From Nonlabens sp. (GTDB lineage Bacteria > Bacteroidota > Bacteroidia > Flavobacteriales > Flavobacteriaceae): DNA of 60,119 nt. Each line of letters starts with the position of its first letter. Position 1 is the stretch's first letter. Location of the stretch: assembly GCA_020630715.1 (NCBI GenBank), contig JAHDIQ010000001.1, forward strand, positions 246,294-306,412, read 5' to 3'. The notes beneath the pieces are model-generated. The model was not told the DNA's origin and ran no database searches. It saw only the letters and a list, made by a program, of their open reading frames with translations. Below are positions 2,252 through 57,070 of the stretch, in pieces. Made by a program: the position numbers and the translations under genes.

Positions 2252-3088
2252 TTATTGATTTCTCTTTGCTTCTTGTTCTTTTCTTTTTGCTTCTCTCGCT
2301 TTTAGAATACTATCCTTGCGCTTTTGTCTTACTTCCATAATACTATCACGCCTTTTTTTCATCCATGCTGCACGTGCTTGCTTTATACTATCACGCTTTT
2401 GTAATTTTTCTAGTCGTGCTTTTTCACGATCATCCATTACAGCTTGTTTCTTTTCTTCTTTTTCTTCCTTTTCTTCTGCCTCTACTACATTGAGGTAACG
2501 TTCATCTTTTTTCTCTTCTGCCTCATCATTCTTCTTTGTGTCCTTCTTATTACGGGATTTTACCTTTGCAGTTCTTCCTATTGCTTTTAAAACATCATCA
2601 CTTAAATCATGACGATCTGCGCTATAAAGCATTGCGGCATCTGCTGCATCTAGAACAAAATCATATTTTTTTTGAGCACTTATTTTTTGTACTTCATTAA
2701 AAACTTGATCCTGTATAGGTTGTATTAATTGTTGTTTTTGTAACACAAAATCTCCTTGTGCGCCAAATCGTTTTTCTGTGTACTTTAAAAGGTCTTCTTC
2801 TTTAATAGAAATGTCTTCTTCTTTTTCTTCAACTAACTCTTTTGTCAACAAGACGCGCTCATTATTTAGTGCCTCTTTCATTTGTTGTACTTCAAGCTTC
2901 ATGCCATCTATTTCTTGCTTCCATTTTGCCATCTTACGATCTAGCTCTTTTACGGCATCTTGATATTCTGGTACATTATCCAGAATATACTCCATATCGA
3001 TGTAAGCAACTCTGGCGCCTCGTTGCGCTTTCGCGAAAGCGAAACACATCAAACTTAATAGACTTAATACAATGATCTTATTTTTCAT
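2252..3088 (-). CDS. OmpH/Skp-family chaperone with long charged C-terminal tail (second copy)
   Basis: A 278-residue OmpH-family protein. Residues 1-21 form a signal peptide that ends AFAKA|Q; this end is encoded by a copy of the 16-bp palindrome. Residues about 25-175 are the OmpH domain (VAYIDMEYILDNVPEYQ at the start, YDFVLDAADAAML near its end). The last 100 residues are almost only Lys, Glu, Arg, Asp and Ala, a predicted long charged helix that the first copy lacks. The gene sits between bamA and the shorter OmpH gene and is probably co-transcribed with them. The tail could lengthen the chaperone arms or bind peptidoglycan; that is a guess. Confidence 0.92.
   Translation of the reverse strand: MKNKIIVLSLLSLMCFAFAKAQRGARVAYIDMEYILDNVPEYQDAVKELDRKMAKWKQEIDGMKLEVQQMKEALNNERVLLTKELVEEKEEDISIKEEDLLKYTEKRFGAQGDFVLQKQQLIQPIQDQVFNEVQKISAQKKYDFVLDAADAAMLYSADRHDLSDDVLKAIGRTAKVKSRNKKDTKKNDEAEEKKDERYLNVVEAEEKEEKEEKKQAVMDDREKARLEKLQKRDSIKQARAAWMKKRRDSIMEVRQKRKDSILKAREAKRKEQEAKRNQ
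3026..3041. repeat. 16-bp palindrome copy 1 (in ompH signal peptide)
   Basis: Exact copy of CGCTTTCGCGAAAGCG. On the gene strand it is read GCT-TTC-GCG-AAA-GCG and encodes AFAKA, directly before the predicted cleavage site in front of Gln. Confidence 0.98.
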
Positions 3089-3121
3089 AAGCGATAGGTT
3101 TATAGAAATAATCGTGCCATT

Positions 3122-5698
3122 TTAAAATTGTTGCCCGATTATAAAGTGTACATTCCATCCACTAGGATCTCTATTTACAGCAGAAGGAATAGGGTCAAAT
3201 CCGTAACCAAAATCAATTCCTAACAGACCAAATGCTGGCATAAATATACGCATTCCTGCTCCTGCAGAACGCTGAACCTCAAATGGGTTATAATCTCTAA
3301 ACTGTGTGTAACTACCACCAGCCTCTGCAAAAGACAACACATAAATAGATGCTGCCTGCTCTAGTGAAATAGGATAACGTAATTCTAAAGAGAATTTGTT
3401 ATAGACGGTATCTCCATCTGCATTTCTGGTTAATGAAGCGTTATCATATCCACGTAGTCTTACAATATCACGACCATCCAGGGCAAATGCTCCTAATCCA
3501 TCACCACCTACAAAGAAACGCTCAAAAGGAACTAATCCACGTGCCTGATTGTAGGCTCCTAGGAATCCAAATTCTGTATTAGTCTCTAACACTAATTTAT
3601 CATATAGCCTAGTGTACCATTTACCCTGAAACTTAATTTTATAATATTCTAAGAATTTCAATCGCTCACGGTCGATTTTCTCCTGGTCTGCAACTCCATT
3701 AGTCTGGAAAGCTTCTTGCTCACCTAGGTTATCATAATCCACACCATTCCATAGAGAATATGGTGGTGTCAATTTTGCAGTTAATGAAAAACTAGATCCA
3801 TAGGTAGGATAAATAGGGTTTACACCTACATTATTTCGACTTATTCCTAAGGTATAGGATAGATTATTTGCTGCACCGTCCTGGAAACTAAATAATGGTG
3901 ATTGAAAATTTTGTACCGTGTAACGCTGGAAAGCAAGCGCCTGCGAGAACTGGAAATAGAAATCTGGCCATTCTAGACGTTTTGCTAGTCCTACTGTTGC
4001 TCCTGTAATCAGGAATCTCTGGCTACGATCTACTTGAGTAAAATCACGTTGATTCACCCTAAACTGTTCACTATGTGATAGGGAAACGTTAAATGACACT
4101 GGTTTTTTACCGCCTAACCAAGGTTCTGTAAAGTTTAAACTATAGGTTCTAAATATTAAACTAGCTTGTGCTCTTAGAGCAATACTTTGTCCATCTCCCA
4201 TAGGAACTGGACGCCATTCTTCTCGTTTAAACAAATTACGCAATGAGAAATTATTGAATCGCAGCCCTAGAGTTCCTACAAATCCACCACCACCATAACC
4301 ACCTTGTAATTCTATCTGGCTAGATCCCGTTTCTACTAATTCATATTCTACATCTACCGTACCTTCCTGTTGATTTACATTTTGAAGTTTTGGATTGATT
4401 TGCTGTGGATCAAAGAATCCCAACTGTCCTACCTCACGTATAGAGCTAATAATTTTTTGACGAGAATACTTTTCTCCAGGTGTAGTTTGAAGTACTCTAT
4501 AAATCACATGATCATTAGTTCTAGCATTACCCGAAACAGTAATGTTATTAAAATATGCCAGATCTCCTTCTACAATTCTAATTTCAAAATCTATGGTGTC
4601 GTTATACACTTTTGTTTCTACTGCATTTACATTAGAAAATAAATAACCACTATTTTGATATAAATTTGAAATATCATCAGAATCTGGATCCTCTGGGTTA
4701 CTAATGCGGTCGTCAAAGGCTACTCCATTATAAACATCACCTTTCTCAATCTTAAGTTTGCGCTGTAACTGTTCATCAGTATAAACAGTATTTCCAATAA
4801 AATCAATGTTACCAAAATAATACTTACGACCTTCTTCTACTTCAATTTTTAAAGCAATACGATCGTCACTCTTTTGTATTAAAGTATCTGATAATACACG
4901 GGCATCTCTAAATCCTTTCTCTTTATATGCATCTACTAATGATGACAAGTCATCTTGATAATCGTCTTCTACATATTTTGATCTTTTCAAAACACGAATT
5001 GGATTAATCTTCTTAGTGTTTTTCATTGCCTTACGCAATTTCTTATCACTAATAAGCTCATTACCTTCAAAAGTGATGTCTGAGATTTTAACCTTTTTAC
5101 CGCGGTTAACATCAATCTTCATATCTACGATGTTTGTATTAGGCAAGGTATCTTCTACTTCTCTGATACGTACTAAAGCATCTGCATACAAGAAACCTTT
5201 ATCACGGTATTTATTTTCAATAAAACTACGTGTAGTTGTTATTAAATTCTCTGTGGCTTTACGGCCTTTTGTAAGTTTAAGTTCCTCCTGTAAATCTTTT
5301 ACTTTATTTTTTTTAAGACCTGTAATTACAACATCTCTTAGGTTAGGTACTTCTACAATGTTTATTTCTAAATTTATAATATCAATGTCGCTATTAGGGT
5401 CATTTAAGATAGCTGTTTGATATAAGCGTACGTCACTAAACAATTTCAAATCCCACAGTTTCTTTATGGCCTGACTTATACGATCACCAGGAGAATAAAT
5501 ATATTCACCTTTTTTAATACCCATAAAAGTGATTACAGTATTTTCATTAAAAGACTGCACACCAGTAACGGTTATTTCACCTACTTTATAAAGTGAGGCA
5601 TCACCTATAGGTGTATCTTTAGTTTGCTGCGCGACAACAGTCGTTCCTACGATCATTGCAAGTGCTATAAATAGCGATTGTGCTAGCTTTTGTGTCAT
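3122..5698 (-). CDS. bamA: Outer membrane protein assembly factor BamA
   Basis: BamA folds and inserts beta-barrel proteins in the outer membrane. The protein has a signal peptide (MTQKLAQSLF.. to VVAQ), several POTRA domains over about residues 40-440 (repeated ITFEGNELI, IDFIGNTVYTDEQL and ITVSGNARTNDHVI openings), and a C-terminal 16-strand barrel of the bacterial surface antigen family ending FIIGQQF, with the terminal aromatic residue typical of outer-membrane proteins. I start at the ATG at 5698, 4 bases after the uppS stop, rather than a GTG at 5716 that overlaps uppS; the shorter form gives a better signal peptide. The operon neighbours (uppS, OmpH pair) match other Bacteroidota. Confidence 0.95.
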   Translation of the reverse strand: MTQKLAQSLFIALAMIVGTTVVAQQTKDTPIGDASLYKVGEITVTGVQSFNENTVITFMGIKKGEYIYSPGDRISQAIKKLWDLKLFSDVRLYQTAILNDPNSDIDIINLEINIVEVPNLRDVVITGLKKNKVKDLQEELKLTKGRKATENLITTTRSFIENKYRDKGFLYADALVRIREVEDTLPNTNIVDMKIDVNRGKKVKISDITFEGNELISDKKLRKAMKNTKKINPIRVLKRSKYVEDDYQDDLSSLVDAYKEKGFRDARVLSDTLIQKSDDRIALKIEVEEGRKYYFGNIDFIGNTVYTDEQLQRKLKIEKGDVYNGVAFDDRISNPEDPDSDDISNLYQNSGYLFSNVNAVETKVYNDTIDFEIRIVEGDLAYFNNITVSGNARTNDHVIYRVLQTTPGEKYSRQKIISSIREVGQLGFFDPQQINPKLQNVNQQEGTVDVEYELVETGSSQIELQGGYGGGGFVGTLGLRFNNFSLRNLFKREEWRPVPMGDGQSIALRAQASLIFRTYSLNFTEPWLGGKKPVSFNVSLSHSEQFRVNQRDFTQVDRSQRFLITGATVGLAKRLEWPDFYFQFSQALAFQRYTVQNFQSPLFSFQDGAANNLSYTLGISRNNVGVNPIYPTYGSSFSLTAKLTPPYSLWNGVDYDNLGEQEAFQTNGVADQEKIDRERLKFLEYYKIKFQGKWYTRLYDKLVLETNTEFGFLGAYNQARGLVPFERFFVGGDGLGAFALDGRDIVRLRGYDNASLTRNADGDTVYNKFSLELRYPISLEQAASIYVLSFAEAGGSYTQFRDYNPFEVQRSAGAGMRIFMPAFGLLGIDFGYGFDPIPSAVNRDPSGWNVHFIIGQQF

Positions 5699-5702
5699 TA
5701 GA

Positions 5703-6440: not shown

Positions 6441-7139
6441 TTAAAAATCGCAATAACATGGTTTCCTACCAAAGGTGTAGGTTAATGAAATCCCTGAAAA
6501 AACATACCAGTCATTGTTACTAATATTTCCAAAGTTTCTTGTGGCAAATCCTGTATCACCATCACCTGGAAAACTTCCGTCCAGATTATCTGTAAAGGTA
6601 TATCTTATTCCTACCTCTGCGGCCAGCACTAAATGCTGTCCTAAAACATTTGATTTAACTCCTAAAACCATAGGAACTGCTAAGCCTCTAAAAGTATCAA
6701 ATTCTTCTAATTGATTTGTAGCGGTATTAAGCCCAAATTCCTCATATTGAAAACCTGTGATTCCAGTATACAAATAAGGTGTCAATTGTGGCTCACCGGT
6801 ATGCAATCGCCAGTCCCAAAAAGTGTATTCAATTCCTACACTAGCTTCAATTAATCTATAATCGTAATTATAACCTCTTAAATCTCTAGAACGATCATCA
6901 CTATCATTATCATCTCCTATCATATTCCCAACGAGTAATGAAGCTCTAAAACTGTGACGACTACTTCTATTCCACTTAAAAATCCCTCCAAAGGTCAAAT
7001 CATTTGGTGCGATAAATTGTGTACTTCCTACATCTCCTATGATATTACTTCCACCTATCCATGGACCTACCTCGTAGGTTTGCGCTTTCGCGAAAGCGAA
7101 ACTCAAAAAAACAAAAAGAAATAAAACTTTTAAACGCAT
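6441..7139 (-). CDS. Outer-membrane beta-barrel protein, DUF6089/PorG-like
   Basis: A 232-residue secreted barrel protein. The signal peptide ends SFAFAKA|Q (residues 15-20, encoded by the palindrome). The rest shows alternating strands such as GGIFKWNRSSRHSFRASLLVG and SVGIEYTFWDWRL, and ends with YTFGRKPCYCDF. Length, N-terminal YEVGPWIGGSNIIGDVG and position next to uppS-bamA match the DUF6089 family, which in Porphyromonas includes PorG, an outer-membrane part of the type IX secretion system. The gene context supports this, but PorG identity in this species is inferred. The two Cys near the end are unusual for such a barrel. Confidence 0.82.
   Translation of the reverse strand: MRLKVLFLFVFLSFAFAKAQTYEVGPWIGGSNIIGDVGSTQFIAPNDLTFGGIFKWNRSSRHSFRASLLVGNMIGDDNDSDDRSRDLRGYNYDYRLIEASVGIEYTFWDWRLHTGEPQLTPYLYTGITGFQYEEFGLNTATNQLEEFDTFRGLAVPMVLGVKSNVLGQHLVLAAEVGIRYTFTDNLDGSFPGDGDTGFATRNFGNISNNDWYVFSGISLTYTFGRKPCYCDF
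7083..7098. repeat. 16-bp palindrome copy 2 (in porG-like signal peptide)
   Basis: Exact copy of CGCTTTCGCGAAAGCG, 4057 bp from copy 1. It encodes AFAKA before Gln at the signal-peptide end. Confidence 0.98.
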
Positions 7140-9574: not shown

Positions 9575-10339
9575 ATGCTACATTCTATTATTTTAGGAAC
9601 TGGGAAACCACTAATCATCTTACATGGTTTTCTAGGAATGGCAGATAACTGGAAAACGCTAGGTAAACTGTGGAGTGAAAATGGTTATCAAGTTCATTTA
9701 TTAGACCAGCGCAATCATGGCCGCAGTTTTCACAGTGACGACTTTAGTTATGAATTAATGGCTCAAGATGTTAAAGAATATTGCGATCATCACGATTTAC
9801 AAAACATCAATCTAATAGGACATTCTATGGGTGGAAAAGTAGCTATGGAACTAGCAAATCTTTACCCTAAACTCATTGATAAACTAGTAGTAGCAGACAT
9901 TGCTCCTAAAACCTATGCACCGCACCATAGTGATATCATTAAAGCGCTAGAATCTGTAGATTTTAATCTCGTAAAACGTCGTAATGATGCAGATGAAATG
10001 ATGGCCACTTTAATTCCAGATACTGGAACTAGACAATTTTTATTAAAAAGTTTATACCGCAAAGAGAAAACTACTTTTGGGTGGAGATTCAATTTAGAAG
10101 TGCTAGGAAATAGTCAACACATGATAGGTCAACATAAAGAATTTGACACAACGATAAAGGTGGAAACCTTATTTGTACGAGGCGGTAATAGCGGTTATAT
10201 ACTTGATAACGATAAAGTTAGTATAGATTACGCTTTCGCGAAAGCGCAATTAAAAACCATCCCAAATGCAGGACACTGGCTACATGCACAACAACCACAA
10301 TTATTCTATGAAACCGTGACAGAATTCCTTGATAATTAA
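9575..10339 (+). CDS. Alpha/beta-hydrolase, esterase (YbfF type)
   Basis: A 254-residue soluble alpha/beta-hydrolase. The oxyanion-hole HGFLG (residues 17-21), the nucleophile elbow GHSMGG (Ser84) and a C-terminal catalytic His in AGHWLHAQ are visible; DQRNHGRS is typical of the YbfF/acyl-CoA esterase group. The substrate cannot be told. It follows pdxJ after one base. Residues 220-225 read AFAKAQ because a palindrome copy lies inside the gene; here the peptide is in the folded core region before the catalytic His, not in a signal peptide. This shows that the DNA element is tolerated in soluble enzymes too. Confidence 0.9.
   Translation: MLHSIILGTGKPLIILHGFLGMADNWKTLGKLWSENGYQVHLLDQRNHGRSFHSDDFSYELMAQDVKEYCDHHDLQNINLIGHSMGGKVAMELANLYPKLIDKLVVADIAPKTYAPHHSDIIKALESVDFNLVKRRNDADEMMATLIPDTGTRQFLLKSLYRKEKTTFGWRFNLEVLGNSQHMIGQHKEFDTTIKVETLFVRGGNSGYILDNDKVSIDYAFAKAQLKTIPNAGHWLHAQQPQLFYETVTEFLDN
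10231..10246. repeat. 16-bp palindrome copy 3 (in hydrolase gene)
   Basis: Exact copy, 3148 bp from copy 2. It is read in the AFAKA frame inside a cytoplasmic enzyme. Confidence 0.98.
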
Positions 10340-15922: not shown

Positions 15923-15946
15923 ATTACGCTTTCGCGAAAGCGTAAT
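15923..15946. repeat. 16-bp palindrome copy 4 (between clpP and clpX, extended to 24 bp)
   Basis: The exact core lies at 15927-15942, 5696 bp from copy 3. Here the symmetry extends four more bases on each side (ATTA / TAAT), giving a 24-bp perfect palindrome. It is one of three intergenic copies. It could form a hairpin in the clpP-clpX mRNA but no T run follows. Confidence 0.98.
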
Positions 15947-19319: not shown

Positions 19320-20114
19320 ATGAAAGTTACCGGTACATTGCGCAAAATGCAAACAGAATTACAAGAAACCGTGCAGTATTATCTGGTATTTAAAGATCAA
19401 TTTATCCATGTAAATCAATTACTAGATAAATCGATTAGTTTAAAACACGTGGCAAATGAATGCCTTAATTGCGGACTAGATAAAAAGATCTGGCGTCAGG
19501 GATTTTGCTATGATTGTTTTAGCGCGATTCCGCAAGCTGGTGAATGGATCATGAAACCAGAATTAAGTCGTGCCCATCTGGATGAAGAAGATCGTGATCT
19601 AGACTATGAAAAGCGCGTCCAGTTAAAACCTCATATCGTATATCTGGCAAATTCTAGCAACGTTAAAGTAGGTGTAACACGTAAAAGTCAAGTGCCTACT
19701 AGATGGATAGATCAAGGCGCTCACGAGGCTATTGCGATTCTAGAAACACCTAATCGGTATCTGGCTGGTATTGCAGAAGTTGCCTTAAAAGACCATGTAG
19801 CAGATAAGACGAACTGGAGAAAAATGCTCACTAATAGTATTGAAGATGTGGATTTATTACGCTTTCGCGAAAGCTTAATTCCTCACCTACCTTATGAAAC
19901 TAAAGAGTACATTCTAGAACTACAGGAAGAGACTGAAATTCACTTTCCCGTGATCCAATATCCTGAAAAAGTAAAAAGTGTCAATCTATCCAAAACACCA
20001 GAACATCACGGTGTTTTAAAAGGGATCAAAGGACAATATTTTATTTTTGAAAATGGCCATGTGATGAATATACGCAGCCATGAAGGTTATGTGGTAGACC
20101 TACAAGTTAATTAG
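19320..20114 (+). CDS. DUF2797 protein with N-terminal zinc-binding cysteines
   Basis: A protein of 264 residues. It has a four-cysteine group (C48, C51, C63, C66) that should bind zinc, and the DUF2797 core (YLANSSNVKVGVTRKSQVPTRWIDQGAHEAIAILETPNRYLAGIAEVALKDHVADKTNWRKML), which resembles a GIY-YIG-like nuclease fold in its strand order. Function is unknown. I start at ATG 19320 (MKVTGTLRKMQTEL); the longer frame reaches into the GH3 gene on the other strand. Residues 181-185 read RFRES, from a palindrome copy. Its end overlaps the next leftward gene by 8 bases. Confidence 0.86.
   Translation: MKVTGTLRKMQTELQETVQYYLVFKDQFIHVNQLLDKSISLKHVANECLNCGLDKKIWRQGFCYDCFSAIPQAGEWIMKPELSRAHLDEEDRDLDYEKRVQLKPHIVYLANSSNVKVGVTRKSQVPTRWIDQGAHEAIAILETPNRYLAGIAEVALKDHVADKTNWRKMLTNSIEDVDLLRFRESLIPHLPYETKEYILELQEETEIHFPVIQYPEKVKSVNLSKTPEHHGVLKGIKGQYFIFENGHVMNIRSHEGYVVDLQVN
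19860..19875. repeat. 16-bp palindrome copy 5 (15 of 16 bases)
   Basis: CGCTTTCGCGAAAGC followed by T instead of G, 3933 bp from copy 4. It is read in the RFRES frame within the DUF2797 gene. Confidence 0.95.
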
Positions 20115-24764: not shown

Positions 24765-25892
24765 ATGCATAATCATCAGGTTTACATAGCATTAGGTAGT
24801 AATACGGGCGATCGCAAATCGCATCTATTGACCGCTTGTAACCATATTGAATCACAAATAGGTCTTATCATTAAAGCAGCAAAAGTTTATGAAGTAGCTG
24901 CTTGTGGATTTAAAGGTGGCGATTTCTTAAATAGCTGCGTCCTAATTCATACTAGAATGGATGCTAAGTCTTGTCTTGAAAAATTGCAAAATATAGAGCA
25001 AGATATGGGACGCGTGCCTCGCAGTTCTGATACTTATGAAGATCGGGTTATTGATCTAGACATCGTGTATTTTGATAACGAAATTATAACAAGCACGACA
25101 TTGCAAATACCACATCCACGCATGCAAGACCGCAATTTTGTAATGCAACCGTTATGTGATATTGCACCACATTTTGAACATCCTGTTTTACATAAAAGCA
25201 ATACGGCGATTTGCAATTCTTTAGATGTTTTAAGAAGTAAGGTAGATGTAGAAATACCGCTTTCGCGAAAGCGTTATCCCATTCACCATATCAATTTTAT
25301 CGCCATTGAAGGTAATATAGGCTCTGGTAAGACTAGTTTAACGCACCAAATAAGTGCTGATTTTAACGCTAAGAAAGTCTTAGAGCGATTTGCAGATAAT
25401 CCTTTTTTGCCATTATTTTATGAAGATACTGATCGGTATGCGTTTCCATTAGAGATGTCATTTCTAGCAGATCGTTACCAGCAATTAAGTGATGATGTAG
25501 CACAACAAGATTTATTCAGCGATTTCACAGTAGCAGATTACTATGTAATTAAATCATTGATATTCAGTAAAATAACACTTTCAAAAGAAGAATACGCTTT
25601 ATACAAACGTCTCTTTACCATGATGTATAAAGAATTAGTAAAGCCAGATTTATATGTTTACTTATACCAGACAGAAGAGCGCTTAATGGAAAACATTAAA
25701 ACTCGCGGTCGTGAATATGAACAAAACATTGAGTCTAGCTACTTGTCACAAATCCAGCAAGGATATGCTAGTTTTATTCGATCGCAGCAAGATTTAAAAA
25801 TCAAAGTTATCGATGTAAGCGAACTAGATTTTGTAAATCAACAAGAGGATTATCTCAAGGTCTTAGATCAAATAAGTGGCACTATCTCTTAA
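24765..25892 (+). CDS. HPPK-deoxynucleoside kinase fusion
   Basis: A 375-residue bifunctional protein. Residues 1-160 are 6-hydroxymethyl-7,8-dihydropterin pyrophosphokinase (FolK): YIALGSNTGDR, the RVIDLDIVYF metal-binding motif (Asp97, Asp99) and IPHPRMQDRNFVMQPL. Residues 175-375 are a deoxynucleoside kinase: P-loop EGNIGSGKT (about 182-190), ERFADNPFL, the FLADRY DRS-like motif and an arginine-rich lid near TRGREYEQNIE. The first makes a folate precursor, the second phosphorylates deoxynucleosides. Residues 165-170 (PLSRKR), in the linker, are encoded by a palindrome copy. I recall similar fusions in Flavobacteriia. The end overlaps the surface-protein gene by 11 bases tail-to-tail. Confidence 0.9.
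   Translation: MHNHQVYIALGSNTGDRKSHLLTACNHIESQIGLIIKAAKVYEVAACGFKGGDFLNSCVLIHTRMDAKSCLEKLQNIEQDMGRVPRSSDTYEDRVIDLDIVYFDNEIITSTTLQIPHPRMQDRNFVMQPLCDIAPHFEHPVLHKSNTAICNSLDVLRSKVDVEIPLSRKRYPIHHINFIAIEGNIGSGKTSLTHQISADFNAKKVLERFADNPFLPLFYEDTDRYAFPLEMSFLADRYQQLSDDVAQQDLFSDFTVADYYVIKSLIFSKITLSKEEYALYKRLFTMMYKELVKPDLYVYLYQTEERLMENIKTRGREYEQNIESSYLSQIQQGYASFIRSQQDLKIKVIDVSELDFVNQQEDYLKVLDQISGTIS
25258..25273. repeat. 16-bp palindrome copy 6 (in the linker of the fusion enzyme)
   Basis: Exact copy, 5398 bp from copy 5. It is the only copy read in the third frame (CTT-TCG-CGA-AAG-CG, LSRKR), exactly between the two catalytic domains. Confidence 0.98.
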
Positions 25893-29206: not shown

Positions 29207-29731
29207 CTATACCATTTTGTAATAGAAATCATAAAGTACGATCCCTGTACAAACGGCTATATTTAAAGAATGTTTTGTGCCGTACTGCTGTAATTCAATC
29301 ACATGAGTACATAAGTCCACTACTTCTTGCTGCACACCTTTTACTTCATTACCCATTACAACAGCTAATTTTGTTGCGGAAGGTTTAAAGTCATGAAGCG
29401 TTACAGATCGCTCTGCCTGTTCAATGGCACAAGTATGTATACCAGATTCATTGAGTTCCTTGATTAGCTCAAAAGTGTTTTCTCTGTATTCCCATGTAAC
29501 GGTTTCAGTAGCTCCTAGAGCTGTTTTACGTATATCTTTATGAGGTGGCTGTGCCGTAATTCCACACAGATAAATTTTCTCAATACGATAAGCATCTGCC
29601 GTACGGAAAACAGCACCTACATTATTTAAACTACGTATGTTATCTAGTACGACTATGATGGGAGTTTTTTCGCTTTCGCGAAAGCGAGATACCGATAACC
29701 TATCCAGTTCTTCATTGAGTAATTTTCTCAT
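29207..29731 (-). CDS. TrmH/SpoU-family RNA 2'-O-methyltransferase
   Basis: A 174-residue SPOUT methyltransferase. The three family motifs are present: motif 1 IVVLDNIRSLNNVGAVFRTADAY (Asn and Arg conserved), motif 2 LAVVMGNEVKGV and motif 3 HSLNIAVCTGIVLYDF, which form the knotted SAM site. It lacks the L30-like N-domain of RlmB, so it is a short form such as those for tRNA. The RNA target is not known. Residues 16-20 read RFRES from a palindrome copy near the N-terminus. It lies between PorP/SprF (after a terminator) and the large surface protein. Confidence 0.9.
   Translation of the reverse strand: MRKLLNEELDRLSVSRFRESEKTPIIVVLDNIRSLNNVGAVFRTADAYRIEKIYLCGITAQPPHKDIRKTALGATETVTWEYRENTFELIKELNESGIHTCAIEQAERSVTLHDFKPSATKLAVVMGNEVKGVQQEVVDLCTHVIELQQYGTKHSLNIAVCTGIVLYDFYYKMV
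29671..29686. repeat. 16-bp palindrome copy 7 (in TrmH-like gene)
   Basis: Exact copy, 4413 bp from copy 6, read in the RFRES frame. Confidence 0.98.
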
Positions 29732-32528: not shown

Positions 32529-33218
32529 TTATCCTGCCTTAAATTCTTTAAGGTAAAAAGGTTCAAAATAAGCGACATCTACGGTGTCGCTTTTTTTGTA
32601 TTTATCCATCGCAATATCACACAATGTAATTGCAGTAGGATTTGCAGTTATATAGTGATGAGACTCTTCTTTAATTAAGTCTTTAAATTTATCTACACCA
32701 GTACCTATAAATGTGGTTATGCTGCTTTCGCGAAAGCGTAAAAACGATATCTCATCTAACACAATAGGTCTTGCCGTCTCAAGAAGTTCATCATTTTTAT
32801 AAATTGCGGCATACACTTCCATACGCCTCGCATCTAACATAGGAATAATGTAGTCACTTTCAAAACCAGATGCTTGTACTTTTAAAGATGCTAAAGTACT
32901 AATAGCAATCATAGGAATATCTAGACTATAACACAACCCTTTTACTGTGGCTACACCTATGCGTAATCCTGTGTAAGAACCAGGACCAGCACTTACGGCA
33001 ATGGCATCTAGATCTTGTGGTTTAACATTATTACGAGTTAGTATCTCTTCAATATATAGGTGTAATCGTTCTCCATGTGAATAGTTGTCACTGTTATCTT
33101 CTAATAGATCCCAACAACTTTTAACACCAAATTTTTGAACAAATGACACCTCATTATCCGTGGCAAGAGCTACAGAGCAATTAGTAGAAGAAGTTTCAAC
33201 ACATAGAATTAGCGCCAT
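32529..33218 (-). CDS. tsaB: tRNA threonylcarbamoyladenosine biosynthesis protein TsaB
   Basis: A 229-residue ASKHA-fold protein that, with TsaD and TsaE, transfers threonylcarbamoyl to A37 of ANN-reading tRNAs. It opens with ILCVETSSTNCSVAL and has AVSAGPGSYTGLRIGVATVKGLCY, the family signature. It follows the second efflux adaptor with no gap, so it is the last gene of the export operon, an arrangement I recall from other flavobacteria. Residues around 161-165 read RFRES from a palindrome copy with one changed end base. Confidence 0.95.
   Translation of the reverse strand: MALILCVETSSTNCSVALATDNEVSFVQKFGVKSCWDLLEDNSDNYSHGERLHLYIEEILTRNNVKPQDLDAIAVSAGPGSYTGLRIGVATVKGLCYSLDIPMIAISTLASLKVQASGFESDYIIPMLDARRMEVYAAIYKNDELLETARPIVLDEISFLRFRESSITTFIGTGVDKFKDLIKEESHHYITANPTAITLCDIAMDKYKKSDTVDVAYFEPFYLKEFKAG
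32723..32738. repeat. 16-bp palindrome copy 8 (15 of 16 bases)
   Basis: TGCTTTCGCGAAAGCG: the first C is T. It is 3052 bp from copy 7, read in the RFRES frame in tsaB. Confidence 0.95.
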
Positions 33219-34500: not shown

Positions 34501-35826
34501 TTATAATTTTAATTCAGTCACTGGTACTCCAAAATACAATTCTAACACCTTAAGGTTAAAGATATACTGGTATTTTGATTGAAGTAATTGATTCTCTGCC
34601 GCTACTAGTTGCTGTCTAGATTGTTCAAAGTCAAAAGCATTAAGTAACCCTACATTGTAACGTTCTTGAGAATATTCAAATGCGGTTTGTCTTGCTTCTA
34701 GTGTTTTTTGAGCCGCATTATATGCCACTCGTGAACCTTCTGCATCCGTGTATGCTCTGTAGATTAAGTTTTCAAGATCTATTTTTGCTTGGTCTTCGGC
34801 AATTTTTGCGCGGTCCAGATTGATCTTTGCTCTCTGTACATTGTTACGTGTCGTGAATCCATTAAAAACAGGAACGTTTAAACGTATTCCATAAGAAATA
34901 CCATCTAGTAGATACAACTGATCTGTAATATCTAAAGCAGTATCTTCCTGTGCTGCGGTGTTGTAATTAAAAAAGCCACTTACCGTAGGTGAGTATCCAG
35001 AACGTGCAATTCGCACGTCTTGTTCTGATAGCTTGATGTTTTGTTCTGCAATTTTAAGCTCGCTACGATTATCAAATGCAGTATTTACAACGCTATTTAC
35101 ATTATTGTCTAAAATACCTGCATCTGGTACTAGGTAATCTAAATCTGCAACGTCAAAGTTTTCATAATCTGTAAGCATTAATAGCTGTGCTAGATTCAGT
35201 TTTGAAATACGCAGACTGTTTTCTGCATCTGCGATTTGTTGATTCTCTGTTTCATAAGTTGCCTGCACTTCTAATAAATCACCACGTGGTAAGGATCCAG
35301 CATCTACTAGATCTTGAGTTTGTTTTATTTGAGCGTTTGTTACTTCATGTTGCTTCAATAGCACATCTAGGTTTTCCCTGTTAAAAAGCACATTCAAATA
35401 AGAGTTTGCCACATTTAATGCAACATTATCCTTAAGATTTTGAATCTGGTATTTAATTGATTCAGACTCCATTTTTGTACGCTCGTACTGTCTAAAGTTT
35501 CTCAATCCATCAAATAGCGTGATCCCAATATTTGCGCTAGCAGAAAGGTTAGTTCTTTTATTGTTTTCAAAACCAGATACTGGGTTGAACTGGAAACCTT
35601 GTGACACGTTCCTACCAGCAGATAGGTTTAATGATGGTAAAAAGTCACCTAACGCACCGCGCTGGTTCACCTCATTAGTCTCAATATCGAGAGCACCATT
35701 CTGTATGCTTATATTATTGTCTATAGCGTGCTGTACACATTCTTGAAGTGTCCAGTTTTTTTGTGATTGCGCTTTCGCGAAAGCGAAACTCAAACAAACA
35801 ATACTAGTTAATAGTAGCTTTTTCAT
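34501..35826 (-). CDS. TolC-family outer-membrane efflux protein
   Basis: A 441-residue secreted protein whose signal peptide ends SFAFAKA|Q (from a palindrome copy), followed by the TolC duplicated coiled-coil and barrel pattern (NWTLQECVQHAIDNNISIQNGALDIE; LPSLNLSAGRNVSQGF; then again SYGIRLNVPVFNGFTTRNNVQRAKINLDRAK). It forms the exit duct for the export complex. It lies between the two adaptors of the operon. The substrate cannot be read from the sequence. Confidence 0.95.
   Translation of the reverse strand: MKKLLLTSIVCLSFAFAKAQSQKNWTLQECVQHAIDNNISIQNGALDIETNEVNQRGALGDFLPSLNLSAGRNVSQGFQFNPVSGFENNKRTNLSASANIGITLFDGLRNFRQYERTKMESESIKYQIQNLKDNVALNVANSYLNVLFNRENLDVLLKQHEVTNAQIKQTQDLVDAGSLPRGDLLEVQATYETENQQIADAENSLRISKLNLAQLLMLTDYENFDVADLDYLVPDAGILDNNVNSVVNTAFDNRSELKIAEQNIKLSEQDVRIARSGYSPTVSGFFNYNTAAQEDTALDITDQLYLLDGISYGIRLNVPVFNGFTTRNNVQRAKINLDRAKIAEDQAKIDLENLIYRAYTDAEGSRVAYNAAQKTLEARQTAFEYSQERYNVGLLNAFDFEQSRQQLVAAENQLLQSKYQYIFNLKVLELYFGVPVTELKL
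35770..35785. repeat. 16-bp palindrome copy 9 (in tolC signal peptide)
   Basis: Exact copy, 3047 bp from copy 8. It encodes AFAKA before Gln at the predicted cleavage site. Confidence 0.98.
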
Positions 35827-40389: not shown

Positions 40390-40602
40390 TCAGTTTTTTT
40401 TAGCGGTAGAGCGGTACACCATATAGATAATCGCTCCTACTAGAATATATGGGAATGCCATTAAATAGGTGATACCGTTATTTAATCCTTGCGCTGCCTG
40501 TGTGTCACCACCTGATTCTATAACGGCACGGCACATGGCACATTGCGCTTTCGCGAAAGCGGAATAAAAAAGAACCACAATAACTAAAATCCACTTTTTC
40601 AT
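40390..40602 (-). CDS. Small membrane protein with signal peptide and CxxC, cytochrome oxidase neighbourhood
   Basis: A 70-residue protein. The signal peptide ends FYSAFAKA|Q (residues 15-20, palindrome-encoded), and the mature protein starts QCAMCRAVIESG with a CxxC motif, followed by one membrane helix (about 43-62) and a charged end. It is the last gene of the oxidase block, 4 bases after DUF420. Small CxxC proteins here could bind copper or heme or take part in thiol exchange for SCO; that is inference from context. I know this gene only as an unnamed family in Flavobacteriia. Confidence 0.78.
   Translation of the reverse strand: MKKWILVIVVLFYSAFAKAQCAMCRAVIESGGDTQAAQGLNNGITYLMAFPYILVGAIIYMVYRSTAKKN
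40546..40561. repeat. 16-bp palindrome copy 10 (in small CxxC protein gene)
   Basis: Exact copy, 4776 bp from copy 9. It encodes AFAKA; the following Gln-Cys is the mature start. Confidence 0.98.
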
Positions 40603-45681: not shown

Positions 45682-45697
45682 CGCTTTCGCGAAAGCG
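45682..45697. repeat. 16-bp palindrome copy 11 (intergenic)
   Basis: Exact copy, 5136 bp from copy 10, in the gap between ctaB and the small PID-CTERM-like gene. Confidence 0.98.
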
Positions 45698-46031: not shown

Positions 46032-49000
46032 CTAAGAAATTACAAAATTCACAATTTTTCCAGGCACTACAATCGTCTTACGAACTGTTTTTTTCTCAAG
46101 TTGTTGCTGTACTTTGTCATTTGATAAAACGAGTTTCTCTAGCTCATCTTTTGTAGCATCTACTGGTAAATCCAGTGTGAATTTCATCTTACCGTTAAAC
46201 GATATAGGATATTTTTTACTGCTTTCTACAAGGTGTTTTTCATCAAAAACTGGAAATGGCGCTTCACTGATCGACTCTTTGTGACCTAGTAAGGACCATA
46301 ATTCTTCTGCAATATGAGGTGCATACGGTGAAACTAGGATCGCAAGTGGTTCTAATACTTCACGGCCATTGCACTTTTGAGCAGTTAATTCATTTACCGC
46401 AATCATAAAACTACTTACGCTGGTATTAAAAGAGAAATTCTCAATATCATCCTGTACTTTTTTAATCGTCTTATGCAAAGTTTTCATGCTGTCTGGTGAC
46501 GCTTTATCCTCGCTTACTGAGAAACCATTATCATTATGATAGAGTTTCCATAGCTTCTTCATAAAACCATACACACCAGTAATTCCTGCGGTATTCCATG
46601 GTTTTGCCTGCTCTAGCGGACCTAAAAACATCTCATACAATCGTAAGGTATCTGCTCCATACTGCTCACAGATGTCGTCTGGATTTACGACGTTGAATTT
46701 AGATTTGGACATTTTTTCAACCTCGCGTGAGACCTTGAAATCGCCGTTTTCATTACGAATTATTTCAAACTTCTCCGAGTCTAAATGAGATCTTTTAAAA
46801 CCTTCTTCGTCCAAAATGTTTTTGTGCCCTATAAATTCAATGGAAACAGGAATAATTCTGTCTTTAAAGGTGATATTACCTTTAAAATCATTAATAAAAT
46901 CTTCTACACTGTATTTTAGATTATTTATTACTCTCGTAGGTAATGAATGCGAACCCATATTATCTGATAAGTGTTGGTGATTATTAACAGGTTTCCAATT
47001 ATTAATAACTGATGCGATGTATCTATTTTCTAATTCAAGGTCTTTATAGTCTTCGTTCTTAATTTCTAAATCTTCAGAAATAAAAGAGCGCAATCCTTGA
47101 CTATATCTTGAAAATCCAGCTGAATTACTTTCTGTAAGATATGGAGTAGTTATTTTGACATAACCACTTTCCCCTAAAATCATCCCTTGATTGATCATCT
47201 TCTGGAATGGTTCTTTTACGGTGACTTTTCCTAGATCATGTAATAACTTTACCCAAAACCTACTATACAACAAGTGACCGGTCGCATGCTCGCTTCCTCC
47301 TATATATAGGTCAACATTTTGCCAGTATTCTTGTGCTTCCTTAGAAAACATCTCGTTTTCATTGTTAGCATCCATATATCTAAACATGTACCAAGAGCTT
47401 CCTGCCCATCCTGGCATAGTGTTTAATTCTAGTGGATACACACAATCGCGGTCATCATCATTTGACACGACTTTGTTTTCCATCGTACACCAGCTCCATG
47501 TAGTTGCACGACCTAGTGGTGGCGCGCCATCTTCTGTAGGTAGATATTCATCTACTTCTGGTAACTCAATAGGTAAGTGCTTGCGGTCTATCATTTGTGG
47601 TAAACCGTCTTTATAATATACTGGGAATGGTTCACCCCAATAACGCTGTCGCGAAAACACCGCATCGCGCAATCTATAATTCGTCTTTCCTTTTCCAGCG
47701 CCTATTTCTTCTAGCTTTTCTATGGCAACTTTCATCGCCTCTTTATAGCTCAATCCATTTAGAAAATCACTGTTACAAATAGGCGTGTTATCTTTTGCTG
47801 TATAAGCTTCTTCACTAATGTCTACACCATCAAAAATATTTTTAATCGCTGGCATTCCATCCTGACCTGCAAAATAGTTTGCAAAAGCATGATCACGCTC
47901 ATCACCACATGGTACGGCCATTACAGCACCAGTTCCATATCCAGCAAGTACATAATCACCTATCCACACAGGCACAGGCTCACCACTTAATGGATGCGTA
48001 GCATAAGCTCCTGTGAACACACCAGAAATGGTCTTCACATCTGCCATGCGCTCACGTTCTGATCGTGCAGCGGTAGCTTTTTTGTAAGCTTCAACAGCAT
48101 CGCGTTGTGCATCAGTTGTTATTTGATCTACTAATTCATGTTCTGGAGCCAGCGTCATAAAAGTGACACCGTAAATAGTATCAGGTCGTGTAGTAAACAC
48201 GTCAATTTTAAGCCTCTCCTCAATCCTCTCCAGCGGAGAGGAAGCTTTTTCTAGTTTAAAACTAACCATTGCTCCTACAGATTTCCCTATCCAGTTGCGT
48301 TGAATTTCCTTGATACTATCACTCCAGTCTAGGTCTTCTAGGTCGTTTAACAAACGCTCTGCAAAAGCGCTAATGCGCATCATCCATTGGCGCATTTTCT
48401 TGCGCACCACTGGATGTCCACCACGTTCAGAAACGCCATTTACGATTTCATCATTTGCAAGTACCGTTCCTAGTGCTGGACACCAGTTCACTTCAGTATC
48501 TGCTAGGAATGTTAAGCGATAATCTAGTAGTATTTCTTGTTGTTCTTTTTCAGTAAAAGCATTCCATTCTACAGCTGTAAACTCACGTAAATCTTCATCT
48601 GTAGCAGCATTAATGGTGGTAGTTCCGCTTTCGCGAAAGCGTACTACCAATTCCTCAATAGGTCTAGCACGATCTTCATCTTTATCATACCAACTTTCAA
48701 ATAGCATGATAAAAATCTCCTGAGTGTACTTATAATAATCTGGTGACGAAGTTCTTACCTCACGATCCCAGTCAAAGCTAAAACCGATGCGATCCATCTG
48801 CTCGCGGTAACGGGCGATGTTCTCCTTTGTAGTAATCGCAGGATGCTGTCCGGTTTGAATCGCATACTGCTCTGCAGGTAACCCAAAGCTGTCATATCCC
48901 ATAGGATGCAAGACATTAAATCCCTTATGACGTTTGTAACGTGACACAATATCACTCGCAATATATCCCAGCGGATGACCTACGTGAAGCCCAGCACCAC

Positions 49001-49130
49001 TAGGATACGGAAACATATCCAGCGCATAAAATTTAGGTTTATCACTGTGATTAACCGCTTTAAAGGTCTTGTTTTTTGCCCAGTAATCTTGCCATTTTTT
49101 CTCTACGGCAACGTGGTCGTAATGCTTCAT
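46032..49130 (-). CDS. leuS: Leucyl-tRNA synthetase with extra inserts
   Basis: A class I synthetase of 1032 residues that charges tRNA-Leu. HVGH (49-52) in PYPSGAGLHVGHPLGY and KMSKS (806-810) are intact, and the editing domain shows TTRPDTIYGVTFM. Three stretches are longer than in a usual enzyme of about 860-950 residues: RPIEELVVRFRESGTT (with palindrome copy 12, about residue 164), SPLERIEERL (about 295-308, from a hairpin repeat) and a 146-residue stretch before KMSKS (about 659-804). I start at ATG 49130 (MKHYDHVAVEKKW), which agrees with the promoter at 49151. The frame opens further up to 49247, but that part overlaps the promoters. Confidence 0.95.
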   Translation of the reverse strand: MKHYDHVAVEKKWQDYWAKNKTFKAVNHSDKPKFYALDMFPYPSGAGLHVGHPLGYIASDIVSRYKRHKGFNVLHPMGYDSFGLPAEQYAIQTGQHPAITTKENIARYREQMDRIGFSFDWDREVRTSSPDYYKYTQEIFIMLFESWYDKDEDRARPIEELVVRFRESGTTTINAATDEDLREFTAVEWNAFTEKEQQEILLDYRLTFLADTEVNWCPALGTVLANDEIVNGVSERGGHPVVRKKMRQWMMRISAFAERLLNDLEDLDWSDSIKEIQRNWIGKSVGAMVSFKLEKASSPLERIEERLKIDVFTTRPDTIYGVTFMTLAPEHELVDQITTDAQRDAVEAYKKATAARSERERMADVKTISGVFTGAYATHPLSGEPVPVWIGDYVLAGYGTGAVMAVPCGDERDHAFANYFAGQDGMPAIKNIFDGVDISEEAYTAKDNTPICNSDFLNGLSYKEAMKVAIEKLEEIGAGKGKTNYRLRDAVFSRQRYWGEPFPVYYKDGLPQMIDRKHLPIELPEVDEYLPTEDGAPPLGRATTWSWCTMENKVVSNDDDRDCVYPLELNTMPGWAGSSWYMFRYMDANNENEMFSKEAQEYWQNVDLYIGGSEHATGHLLYSRFWVKLLHDLGKVTVKEPFQKMINQGMILGESGYVKITTPYLTESNSAGFSRYSQGLRSFISEDLEIKNEDYKDLELENRYIASVINNWKPVNNHQHLSDNMGSHSLPTRVINNLKYSVEDFINDFKGNITFKDRIIPVSIEFIGHKNILDEEGFKRSHLDSEKFEIIRNENGDFKVSREVEKMSKSKFNVVNPDDICEQYGADTLRLYEMFLGPLEQAKPWNTAGITGVYGFMKKLWKLYHNDNGFSVSEDKASPDSMKTLHKTIKKVQDDIENFSFNTSVSSFMIAVNELTAQKCNGREVLEPLAILVSPYAPHIAEELWSLLGHKESISEAPFPVFDEKHLVESSKKYPISFNGKMKFTLDLPVDATKDELEKLVLSNDKVQQQLEKKTVRKTIVVPGKIVNFVIS
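48211..48246. repeat. Short hairpin repeat inside leuS
   Basis: The bases CCTCTCC.AGC.GGAGAGG form a 7-bp stem with a 3-base loop (about 48224-48240), preceded by a second CCTCTCC-like arm (48213-48219). It is in frame and encodes SPLERIEERL, an insert between conserved LeuRS segments (SFKLEKA.. and DVFTTRPDT). It resembles intergenic hairpin repeats that I recall from Bacteroidota genomes. Confidence 0.5.
48626..48641. repeat. 16-bp palindrome copy 12 (in leuS)
   Basis: Exact copy, 2944 bp from copy 11. Read in the RFRES frame in a region that is variable among LeuRS proteins. Confidence 0.98.
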
Positions 49131-49150
49131 GATCATCGCGTTATAAGGCG

Positions 49151-49158
49151 CAAAAATA
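49151..49158 (-). promoter_or_regulatory. -7 promoter element upstream of leuS
   Basis: TATTTTTG on the minus strand, a perfect TAnnTTTG, 20 bases before the ATG at 49130. The -33 side has no clean TTTG. Confidence 0.6.
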
Positions 49159-49220
49159 GTGTGTTTACAACAATGATTAAACTTAAAGCGTTGTAAACCA
49201 CAAGAGCTCATAATCTTTGT

Positions 49221-49228
49221 TATTTTTG
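49221..49228 (+). promoter_or_regulatory. -7 promoter element upstream of ftsX
   Basis: TATTTTTG, a perfect TAnnTTTG, 28 bases before the ftsX ATG. The divergent leuS promoter lies about 70 bases away. Confidence 0.6.
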
Positions 49229-49256
49229 TGAGGTTTTTAAAACGCAATTTTAAGAA

Positions 49257-52555: not shown

Positions 52556-52571
52556 CGCTTTCGCGAAAGCG
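52556..52571. repeat. 16-bp palindrome copy 13 (intergenic, in a promoter)
   Basis: Exact copy, 3930 bp from copy 12. It lies between two divergent genes and over the -33 position of the LEA-lipoprotein promoter. Confidence 0.98.
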
Positions 52572-54652: not shown

Positions 54653-54654
54653 TT

Positions 54655-55332: not shown

Positions 55333-55390
55333 GCAACGGTGGATCGCATCCGCCCAGCAAAGGCAGAATGCCTACAAAAGATAAAAAACC

Positions 55391-55404
55391 GCGAGTATAC
55401 TCGC
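55391..55404. repeat. Hairpin GCGAGTATACTCGC before pspA-like gene
   Basis: A perfect 14-bp palindrome (stem GCGAG, loop TATA) in the YbjN-PspA gap, followed by an A-rich stretch. It has the same build as the TGCG-loop hairpins further right. Confidence 0.7.
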
Positions 55405-55421
55405 TACAAAAAACAATAACT

Positions 55422-56135
55422 ATGAACATATTTAAAAGATTATTCAAAATAGGTCAAGCCGAAGCTAATAAAGCTGTCGATAATATGGAAGATCCTATTA
55501 AAATGACAGAACAAGGAATACGCGACATGAAAGAAGACCTTAATAAAAGCGTAGAAGCCATGGCACAAGTAAAAGCACTAGCCATACGTTCTAAAAACGA
55601 GACAGAAGAGCACACCGCAAAAGCTAAGGATTACGAACAAAAAGCCATTCTTATCCTTAAAAAAGCACATGCTGGTGATCTGGATGTGACCGAAGCTGAT
55701 CGCCTAGCAAAAGAAGCCTTGCTTAAAAAAGAGGAAGCGCAACAAAATGCTGATCGTGCCGCTACAGACCACGAGAAATTTGAAAATAACGTCACTCAAT
55801 TAAAGACCACTATTGAAACGGTAAAAAGCAACATCTCTAAATGGGAAAACGAACTTAAAACGCTTAAAGCACGCGTTAAAGTAAGTGATGCTACTAAAAA
55901 TGTGAATAAACAAATGGCCGAGTTAGATGGTGCAGATACCGTAAGTATGCTAGAACGTATGAAGGAAAAAGTAGCACAAGATGAAGCACTAGCCGAAGCT
56001 TATGGAGATATCGCAAAGGCAGATAAAGACATCGATAAAGAAATAGACGCTGCCGCAGATGGTAGTACCGCAAAAGTTGAAGACGACCTAGCAAAACTTA
56101 AAGAGCAGTTAGGAATGAACGATAAAAACGCCTAA
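55422..56135 (+). CDS. PspA/IM30-family membrane-stress protein
   Basis: A 237-residue, nearly all-helical protein. Residues 1-24 form the amphipathic helix (MNIFKRLFKIGQAEANKAVDNMEDP) that binds stressed membranes. The rest is a coiled coil (Ala/Lys/Glu-rich to residue 190) of the ESCRT-III-like PspA/Vipp1 fold, with a short C-terminal helix (DDLAKLKEQLG). The ATG is 55422; an in-frame start at 55368 is less likely because it adds residues before the binding helix. It protects the proton-motive force in other bacteria. The next gene starts 2 bases on. Confidence 0.92.
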   Translation: MNIFKRLFKIGQAEANKAVDNMEDPIKMTEQGIRDMKEDLNKSVEAMAQVKALAIRSKNETEEHTAKAKDYEQKAILILKKAHAGDLDVTEADRLAKEALLKKEEAQQNADRAATDHEKFENNVTQLKTTIETVKSNISKWENELKTLKARVKVSDATKNVNKQMAELDGADTVSMLERMKEKVAQDEALAEAYGDIAKADKDIDKEIDAAADGSTAKVEDDLAKLKEQLGMNDKNA

Positions 56136-56137
56136 TT

Positions 56138-56347
56138 GTGAGCAACCTAAATTTCAAGTGCGTAAAATGTGGACATCAGGACTATGAAACTGGAGAAATG
56201 CGTGCCACTGGTGGGACCTTATCAAAGATATTTGATATCCAGAATAAAAAGTTCAGTTATGTCGCATGCAAGCGCTGCAAATACACAGAATTTTATAAAG
56301 CTAGTACTGGAGCGTTGAGTAACATCTTTGACTTTTTTACCAGCTAG
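56138..56347 (+). CDS. DUF2082 zinc-ribbon protein
   Basis: A 69-residue protein with two CxxC pairs (Cys8/Cys11 and Cys44/Cys47) and the DUF2082 pattern FKCVKCGHQDYETGEMRATGGTLSKIFDIQNKKFSYVACKRCKYTEFYK..NIFDFFT. It should bind one zinc. The start is GTG, 2 bases after the PspA stop (no ATG in frame). Its place inside a membrane-stress operon suggests a partner for PspA or flotillin; no function is known. Confidence 0.85.
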   Translation: MSNLNFKCVKCGHQDYETGEMRATGGTLSKIFDIQNKKFSYVACKRCKYTEFYKASTGALSNIFDFFTS

Positions 56348-56371
56348 AATCAACATAAACACTAACCAACT

Positions 56372-57070
56372 TTGGAAAACTACTTTGACATCATATTCTC
56401 GCAAGTAAACCTCACCTTAAGTGTGTTGTTGATCATTTTGATCGTTTACTGGATCCTAACTATGGTTAGCGGTATTGATTTTGACCTAGATATCGATGTA
56501 GACATAGATGCAGATCTTGAGGTAGATACCGGAATTGAAGGTGGCAACATGGACTTTTCTGATGTTGCAAATGCAGAGGTGGATCGCGAGCACGTCGTGA
56601 ATAAACGCACTCGTAAACTTAAATGGTGGCAAGTCCTATTGATCTATTTCAATTTTGTAGGATTACCATTTATGTTCACCTTCACGTTTTGGATTTTCAA
56701 CTGGTGGATCATCACCGTTCTAGCAACCTTAATTACTGGTAGTTATGACAATAACTTTGGATTTGTAATCGTGTTACTAGCCATTATTCCGTCATTAATC
56801 ATGACTAAAATCCTGACCACGCCATTTAAATCGTTTTTCAAAAACTTAAATAAAGATGGAGATAAAGCGATTGATTTTTTAGGAAGACCAGCAACATTAC
56901 TCAGTACCATTTCTGGCGATAAACTTGGAAATGCAGAGGTCATGGCAGATGGCAACGCCATGAGTATTTATGTAAAATCCTTAGATGGATCAGAATTACG
57001 CTTTCGCGAAAGCGTACTCATCATCAAACAATCAGATGATAAGAACTATTTTTATGTGAGTAAAGCATAA
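56372..57070 (+). CDS. NfeD/YqiJ-like membrane protein with OB-fold end
   Basis: A 232-residue protein with an N-terminal helix (about 13-34), an acidic stretch rich in Asp-Ile repeats (38-58), two or three helices (about 83-150) and a C-terminal OB-like domain (about 160-230; IDFLGRPATLLSTISGDKLGNAEVMADGNAMSIYVKSLDGSELRFRESVLIIKQ). NfeD-type proteins pair with flotillins (YuaF-YuaG, YqiJ-YqiK), and a flotillin follows here. The start is TTG (TTGGAAAAC), as no ATG or GTG fits. Residues 210-214 read RFRES, encoded by a palindrome copy within the OB domain. Confidence 0.88.
   Translation: MENYFDIIFSQVNLTLSVLLIILIVYWILTMVSGIDFDLDIDVDIDADLEVDTGIEGGNMDFSDVANAEVDREHVVNKRTRKLKWWQVLLIYFNFVGLPFMFTFTFWIFNWWIITVLATLITGSYDNNFGFVIVLLAIIPSLIMTKILTTPFKSFFKNLNKDGDKAIDFLGRPATLLSTISGDKLGNAEVMADGNAMSIYVKSLDGSELRFRESVLIIKQSDDKNYFYVSKA
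56999..57014. repeat. 16-bp palindrome copy 14 (in NfeD-like gene)
   Basis: Exact copy, 4443 bp from copy 13, read in the RFRES frame. Confidence 0.98.

Follow-up and report, generated by a model that had tools for sequence, protein, structure and literature searches.

The DNA analysed here, referred to as the window, is a 60,119-nt stretch of a Nonlabens sp. genome of 2.98 Mb (G000:C15:246294-306412). It raises the question of why one 16-bp palindrome recurs in it again and again, and what could read it. The sequence-only reading had counted 14 copies, 12 of them exact and two with one end base changed, and every one of its coordinates was borne out when we searched the window. The sole further match with up to three mismatches was a weak one at 47644, which has three, and in 100 dinucleotide-preserving shuffles of the window the number of matches at this threshold was 0.06 on average and 1 at most. 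The copies and their surroundings are as follows.

3026..3041, exact copy, within an OmpH-like gene (2252-3088, minus strand), encoding AFAKA at the end of a signal-peptide-like stretch
7083..7098, exact copy, in the signal-peptide-like start of a DUF6089 gene (6441-7139, minus strand)
10231..10246, exact copy, within the gene of an alpha/beta hydrolase (9575-10339, plus strand)
15927..15942, exact copy, intergenic, between two plus-strand genes
19860..19875, copy with a change in its last base, within a DUF2797 gene
25258..25273, exact copy, encoding LSRKR in the linker of fused HPPK-deoxynucleoside-kinase domains
29671..29686, exact copy, close to where a SpoU methylase gene (29207-29731, minus strand) starts
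32723..32738, copy with a change in its first base, within a TsaD-family gene (32529-33218, minus strand)
35770..35785, exact copy, in the signal-peptide-like start of an outer-membrane efflux protein (34501-35826, minus strand)
40546..40561, exact copy, intergenic, between two minus-strand genes
45682..45697, exact copy, intergenic, between two minus-strand genes
48626..48641, exact copy, inside a leucyl-tRNA synthetase gene (46032-49247, minus strand)
52556..52571, exact copy, flanked by divergent genes
56999..57014, exact copy, close to the 3' end of an ORF that has no Pfam match (56372-57070, plus strand)

The window also contains a Flavo-1 RNA (59296-59372, minus strand), which scored 56.5 bits, above the gathering score. 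For one protein encoded in the window, the closest relative bearing a name belongs to a metagenome-derived genome of Nonlabens, a genus of Flavobacteriaceae (74% identity, three loci found).

The excess of the palindrome extends over the whole genome, which contains 448 exact copies, compared with none of the same pattern read backwards, used as a control. In 412 kb of the genome that we examined closely (the window, contig C1, and the first 120 kb of contig C4), there were 60 exact and 29 one-mismatch copies, the latter deviating mostly at the end bases, followed by 6, 4, and 6 copies at two, three, and four mismatches, beyond which the background starts. In the same 412 kb, 2000 other palindromic 16-mers of equal GC content gave 0 occurrences in total, compared with 60 of the palindrome. 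The sequence-only reading had placed the motif far above chance and had named a genome-wide count near chance as the outcome that would speak against it. With 448 copies in this genome and all 22 other genomes of the genus that were counted rich in the motif, its claim stands. It had also known of no described role for the motif, and the literature search did not contradict this. The 16-mer, the 14-mer, and the 12-mer were found in none of the papers searched, and the 10-mer TTTCGCGAAA occurs in ten of them, the titles of which are all off topic. Among the matches listed, neither Nonlabens combined with palindrome or competence terms nor uptake sequences combined with Bacteroidota terms gave anything on point; Nonlabens is not named in a paper on REP elements, and BLAST searches against plasmids and phages returned nothing useful.

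Exact counts in 59 genomes, including that of the window, showed how narrowly the palindrome is distributed. It was present in 180-737 exact copies in each of the 22 other genomes of the same genus, probably Nonlabens, in 1 of 13 genomes from other genera of the family (G033, with 4 copies), and in none of the 23 genomes that represent other families within the order. The 14-bp core matched at least once in 80 of 397 family genomes, and it reached hundreds of copies only in its own genus (551-664 in G000 and all three others included) and in two further genomes, G234 with 408 and G250 with 857. The remaining genomes had 0-19 copies, several of the low counts being clustered on one island. Within the 397 family genomes, the 14-bp core is abundant only in the genus of the window and two other genera. 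As to whether the motif arose once, the tree of DUF5689 needs at least two changes, and a single change would do in the tree of ComEC, at a support of 81/85; the ComEC tree has 9 rows, two of which are ORFs of clearly smaller length.

In motif-poor genera, the few palindrome copies were found clustered on an island (L137 in G145, L138 in G259, L139-L140 in G131, L141 in G122, and L142-L145), and in G145, G259, G131, and G122 two copies lay 933 bp apart. At L140, the island encodes an ArsP permease, a multicopper oxidase, an efflux system, and RteC, as if this metal-resistance island were an integrative element that may have arrived from a motif-bearing host.

The arms of the palindrome, TTTC-GC-GAAA, enclose a 2-bp centre. 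Outward from the core, each side continues with roughly (A/T)AAT and then with about 14 bp that are very low in G and have A and C in excess, the two sides being mirror images in composition. Such symmetric G-poor flanks were observed in G000 (89 sites), in G020 (109 sites), and in G250 (48 sites), and in a weaker form in G234 (32 sites). The numbers of matches between mirror positions were within 1.3 sd of those obtained with shuffled partners in four genomes and four column ranges, with one exception, columns 21-35 of G250, in which mirror matches were fewer than the shuffled ones (169 vs. 197, sd 12). The flanks are symmetric with no excess covariation between the arms, a pattern that a two-fold symmetric DNA-binding protein would produce and a hairpin would not. 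Judged by this composition, the palindrome and its flanks fit what would be expected of DNA that is read by a two-fold symmetric putative protein.

The A+C fraction of the flanks was also seen to oscillate outward to about 60 bp when 588 arms from four genomes were pooled: it peaked at distances of about 11, 27, and 47 bp and was lowest at about 21, 38, and 56 bp. The oscillation was reproduced in G000, G020, and G016, some sites of the latter being orthologous to G000 sites, and in G250 it did not reach beyond about 31 bp. Its period is not fixed, as spectral peaks appeared near both 19 and 26 bp. Because the null is lenient, with random places in the same genomes exceeding the 95% level too, at less than one third of the signal, the evidence that these outer waves are real is suggestive.

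The sequence-only reading saw in the TTTC..GAAA arms a hint of ParB and Noc sites. The arms are indeed alike, but the hint did not hold up. The centre is 4 bp long in the quoted parS and Noc sequences and 2 bp long here. Moreover, parS and Noc sites are few or regionally placed, whereas the Nonlabens sites number in the hundreds and are evenly spread. In G020, a genus member assembled as one contig, the ten sampled stretches closest to the ends of the contig, the presumed origin side, contained 44 exact sites, compared with 42 in the ten middle stretches. ParB/Noc-like sites were rejected on account of the wrong centre and the lack of regional bias in the stretches sampled.

A highly iterated palindrome could also be created or kept by the joint action of a DNA methyltransferase and mismatch repair, as in the case of HIP1. 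Usual methyltransferase sites are shorter than 16 bp, and the length of the Nonlabens motif exceeds them. Outside the palindrome its inner hexamer, TCGCGA, occurred at the background level (34 vs. 39.9 expected), and C5-methyltransferases (PF00145, the sole class searched) were missing in 9 of 21 motif-rich genomes. As described in PMC4390886, the cyanobacterial HIP1 (GCGATCGC) resembles the Nonlabens motif in being a highly iterated palindrome whose variants deviate mostly at the end bases. It differs in being only 8 bp long and tied to methyltransferases. As the C5 methylase is not common to all carriers and the inner hexamer is not enriched elsewhere, we rejected a HIP1-like origin through this enzyme, and we regard methyltransferase-dependent maintenance in general as very improbable.

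The placement of the sites relative to genes was determined with simple ORF calls, here and for the second motif described below. Inside ORFs, which cover 90% of the 412 kb, lie 58 of the 89 sites (65%), and the other 31 lie in the 10% of DNA between genes, an enrichment of about 3.5-fold. Twenty of the intergenic sites are between genes of the same strand, 10 are between divergent genes, and one is between convergent genes. The intragenic sites are translated in three frames, mostly as AFAKA (31), RFRES (15), or LSRK (12), and AFAKA repeatedly ends signal-peptide-like stretches. The dyad symmetry and the 10 divergent intergenic positions are what one could expect of operators of a global transcription factor, but the sites occur in hundreds, are evenly spaced, and in most of the cases examined lie inside coding sequence, such as that of leucyl-tRNA synthetase, which makes a role as operators hardly credible.

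The spacing of the sites departs strongly from random. In the 412 kb, the 86 gaps between sites had a mean of 4.6 kb and a CV of 0.47, as compared with 0.99 for random placement, and only one of them (1.2%) was shorter than 1 kb, while 19.5% would be expected. The 13 gaps of the window, all of 2.9-5.7 kb, had a CV of 0.22, and none of 20,000 random placements was equally even. Similarly, the variance-to-mean ratio in 20 sampled stretches of G020 was 0.52. The longest stretch of the 412 kb that lacks sites, of 15.4 kb (G000:C4:54760-70174; L055, L056), is a surface-polysaccharide cluster encoding Wzm/Wzt, glycosyltransferases, NeuB, and UDP-GlcNAc 2-epimerase (10 of 15 ORFs scanned).

Because the spacing is so even, a chromosome-organising protein stays a serious rival to the uptake reading given below. 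In this case, the sites would be bound by a putative genus-specific nucleoid or loop anchor, one site per about 4-5 kb. The two-fold symmetric core and the compositional bias reaching perhaps 60 bp on each side would suit a dimeric, bending, or spreading protein, and the similar site density in the sampled halves of G020 would suit it as well. We consider such binding unlikely, although worth weighing in earnest. A chromosome ruler, in which a putative genus-specific two-fold symmetric protein would sit on palindromes every 4-5 kb, with a bias of about 60 bp to each side, and in which resident phages and elements would be marked in the same way, appears likewise unlikely to us; if it were true, it would represent a new level of chromosome organisation.

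To follow the sites between species, we compared 219 kb of two genus members, G016 and G003, of which 204 kb aligned with 87% identity. All but one of the 50 G016 sites could be aligned to G003, in which 35 were exact, 6 had one mismatch, 7 had two mismatches, and 1 had a gap (n = 49). The site was exact in both genomes in 31 of the 49 cases and identical in both in 34, while only 20.7% of random 16-mers were unchanged. The divergence of the sites was 3.3%, as compared with 9-18% in 10-bp bins of the flanks. This pattern indicates that the core is kept, that the flanks are kept only in their composition, and that the sites change by substitution.

Individual sites of the window could be traced in the same way. 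The copy at 19860, with its last base changed in the window, is exact in a matching context in G016, G011, G001, and G003, and the one at 32723, with its first base changed, is exact in a matching context in the same four genomes as well as in G005 and G002. The copy at 25258 is exact in G016, G011, G001, and G003 and has a one-mismatch form in L100; the linker in which it lies is variable and shows no indel relative to Flavobacterium zepuense. The copy at 29671 is represented by forms with one or two mismatches in a matching context in G016, G011, G001, and G003, and that at 35770 is retained in a matching context in six genus members, in one of them with one mismatch.

These allelic differences bear on the possibility that the palindrome is a mobile repeat of the REP type or a transcription terminator. 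It is a palindrome enriched between genes, as either of these would be, but alleles in the second species differ by substitution, with a gap in only 1 of 49, and 65% of the sites are intragenic, contrary to the extragenic position by which REP elements are defined, and thus mobile insertion was rejected. A hairpin or terminator was rejected too, as the flanks lack compensatory pairing, with no excess covariation of the arms, and only one of the 31 intergenic sites lies between convergent genes. Both of these origins seem to us extremely improbable.

A scan of viral contigs by the motif found 41 stretches, and 20 of these loci, lying in 19 records, were analysed for sites. The 19 records contained 73 sites within two mismatches, or one per 5.8 kb, a density that is biased upward because the records were picked by the motif. 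The flank profile was obtained after near-duplicates had been dropped, with contigs of 45-53% GC assigned to neither group: the 26 distinct sites in contigs below 45% GC had G-poor flanks (G fraction 0.087), and the six sites in contigs of at least 53% GC did not (G fraction 0.31). Two of the virus records are tailed phages, one by its portal, capsid, and tape-measure genes, and the other by its portal and terminase genes. Related virus contigs retain the site in the same context. A tyrosine integrase was found in 6 of the 19 site-bearing records; two of the 13 without it are longer than 37 kb. The site-bearing phages may be temperate. Two named Nonlabens phages, P12024S and P12024L, the host of which is a Persicivirga strain, had no site within three mismatches in the 35,000 bases examined of each, compared with 7.6 expected at host density, and no integrase was named among the 57 and 56 features listed for them; with most of their gene order in common, the two amount to hardly more than a single case.

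The occurrence of the sites in both genes and phage contigs, their near genus specificity, and their density in the 412 kb, one per 4.6 kb, could also point to a recombination or repair hotspot, recognised like Chi by a translocating nuclease. However, Chi sites are short, asymmetric, and orientation-biased, and they would not be expected to form an evenly spaced, perfect 16-bp palindrome between symmetric flanks. The asymmetry of Chi led us to reject the motif as a Chi site, and a Chi-like hotspot in the wider sense is, in our judgement, quite improbable. The chromosome-organising protein, in turn, does not by itself account for phage contigs that keep their sites in matching contexts, nor for the lack of sites in the polysaccharide locus and in the two Nonlabens phages.

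The reading that we prefer is that the palindrome serves the genus as a sequence for DNA uptake (self-recognition), similar to USS and DUS but two-fold symmetric, and we give it slightly better than an even chance. Two Proteobacterial families are well known to recognise their own DNA by such sequence tags. What marks uptake sequences was found here as well: a large excess of one short sequence, sites both inside and between genes, and near-even spacing. As the best explanation, an uptake sequence fits the observed features better than the ParB/Noc, REP, terminator, HIP1, or regulon readings, and by analogy the palindrome most likely works like USS and DUS, short of proven membership among them. 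Under this reading, a putative surface receptor of the natural-transformation machinery would bind the 16-bp core as a dimer or a two-fold assembly, and would also read or bend the A/C-rich flanks. Fragments with a site would be taken up more often, and their recombination into the chromosome would spread and repair the sites by molecular drive. As one fragment would profit little from having two sites, these would stay several kb apart. Sites would be gained by temperate phages and other DNA of long residence, whereas lytic phages and fast-turnover loci would not gain them. Receptor binding, uptake bias, and molecular drive are what we infer for the palindrome by this reasoning.

Published work on uptake sequences, as excerpted here, offers several points of comparison. 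In H. influenzae, 65% of the uptake sequences are inside ORFs, and significant even spacing is cited for them in the excerpted text (PMC1939737). Like the palindrome, the USS of Haemophilus influenzae and other Pasteurellaceae occur in hundreds of near-perfect copies. Their reported accumulation in temperate Pasteurellaceae phages, and not in large, likely lytic ones (PMC6776037, in the part consulted), may be paralleled by the sites in tailed-phage contigs described above. They differ in that they are non-palindromic and in that their hosts are Gammaproteobacteria of known competence, whereas competence and a receptor are putative in Nonlabens. According to the same excerpt (PMC1939737), USS and DUS are not palindromes and are less evenly spaced than compaction sites would be. 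The very regular spacing of the palindrome may favour the chromosome-organising protein; the evenness of USS is known here from the published description. The DUS of Neisseriaceae, in the portions of the reports used, are similar to the palindrome in having lineage-level variants, and islands of foreign dialect reveal the transfer of ICEs (PMC7371117), perhaps as the RteC-containing metal-resistance island does here, but they are non-palindromic (PMC1939737) and have a known receptor, ComP (PMC3868556).

With respect to the machinery, natural transformation is known in related bacteria: excerpts of one report state that Riemerella anatipestifer needs for it ComEC, DprA, ComF, and RecA, and also four proteins of a type largely confined to Flavobacteriaceae, and they link the ComEC, DUF5689, and helix-hairpin-helix families to this process (PMC8459023). 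We found ComEC, DUF5689, and HHH_3 in all 19 genomes tested, 7 of them motif-rich and 12 motif-poor. As these families are present in motif-poor genomes too, they do not discriminate between the two groups: the machinery can be present, which does not mean that it reads the motif, and the comparison of the 19 genomes singled out no receptor for the palindrome. Among the matches listed, nothing concerned the transformation of Nonlabens. In R. columbina, own DNA is preferred, and k-mer counts up to 10 bp were topped only by A/T-rich words in the part of that study available to us (PMC7965970).

If the palindrome is an uptake sequence, Bacteroidota would represent a further origin of DNA self-recognition, by means of a palindromic tag here and of another motif in some other genera. 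A direct test would be opened for the poorly understood Riemerella-type transformation machinery, the density of the motif could tie phages and elements to their host, and the addition of a site may aid genetic work in marine flavobacteria.

A search for 11-12-mers in 10 other genera revealed no comparable long motif, except for long repeats in G219 and G259, and led to CTTCCGAAG, which is a different dyad. In 16 of the 397 family genomes, CTTCCGAAG was present in 235-1014 copies (both strands), compared with 28-79 for the reversed control. This is an excess of about 6- to 19-fold; a weaker excess was seen elsewhere. The 16 genomes belong to nine genera (g8, g12, g46, g58, g82, g97, g120, g133, and g217; e.g., G322, G033, and G285; stretches L212 and L213). 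The enrichment is not always genus-wide, as in g49 one genome has 238 copies vs. 26 of the control (G299) and another 28 vs. 29 (G074). In the four genomes sampled from the genus of the window and in G234 (23 vs. 55), CTTCCGAAG was below the control, and in G250 it was near it (20 vs. 18). A small sample of sites contained 28 of 31 inside genes, at a coding fraction of 93%, with a gap CV of 0.70, indicating that CTTCCGAAG is neither enriched between genes nor as evenly spaced as the Nonlabens palindrome. Different genera carry different repeated dyads, as uptake dialects would, and these dyads might share a function; CTTCCGAAG is possibly a second dialect. A different motif in other genera is a further observation for which a chromosome-organising protein by itself gives no account.

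We also noticed that TTTCAGAAA was enriched in two of the CTTCCGAAG genera, with 17 copies vs. 1.5 expected in G145 (L137, L194, L195) and 23 vs. 3.6 expected in G122 (L141, L200, L201, L275). The long repeated words of G219 (L204, L205) and G259 (L138, L196, L197) resembled locus repeats, one 12-mer occurring 31 times in 40 kb of G219.
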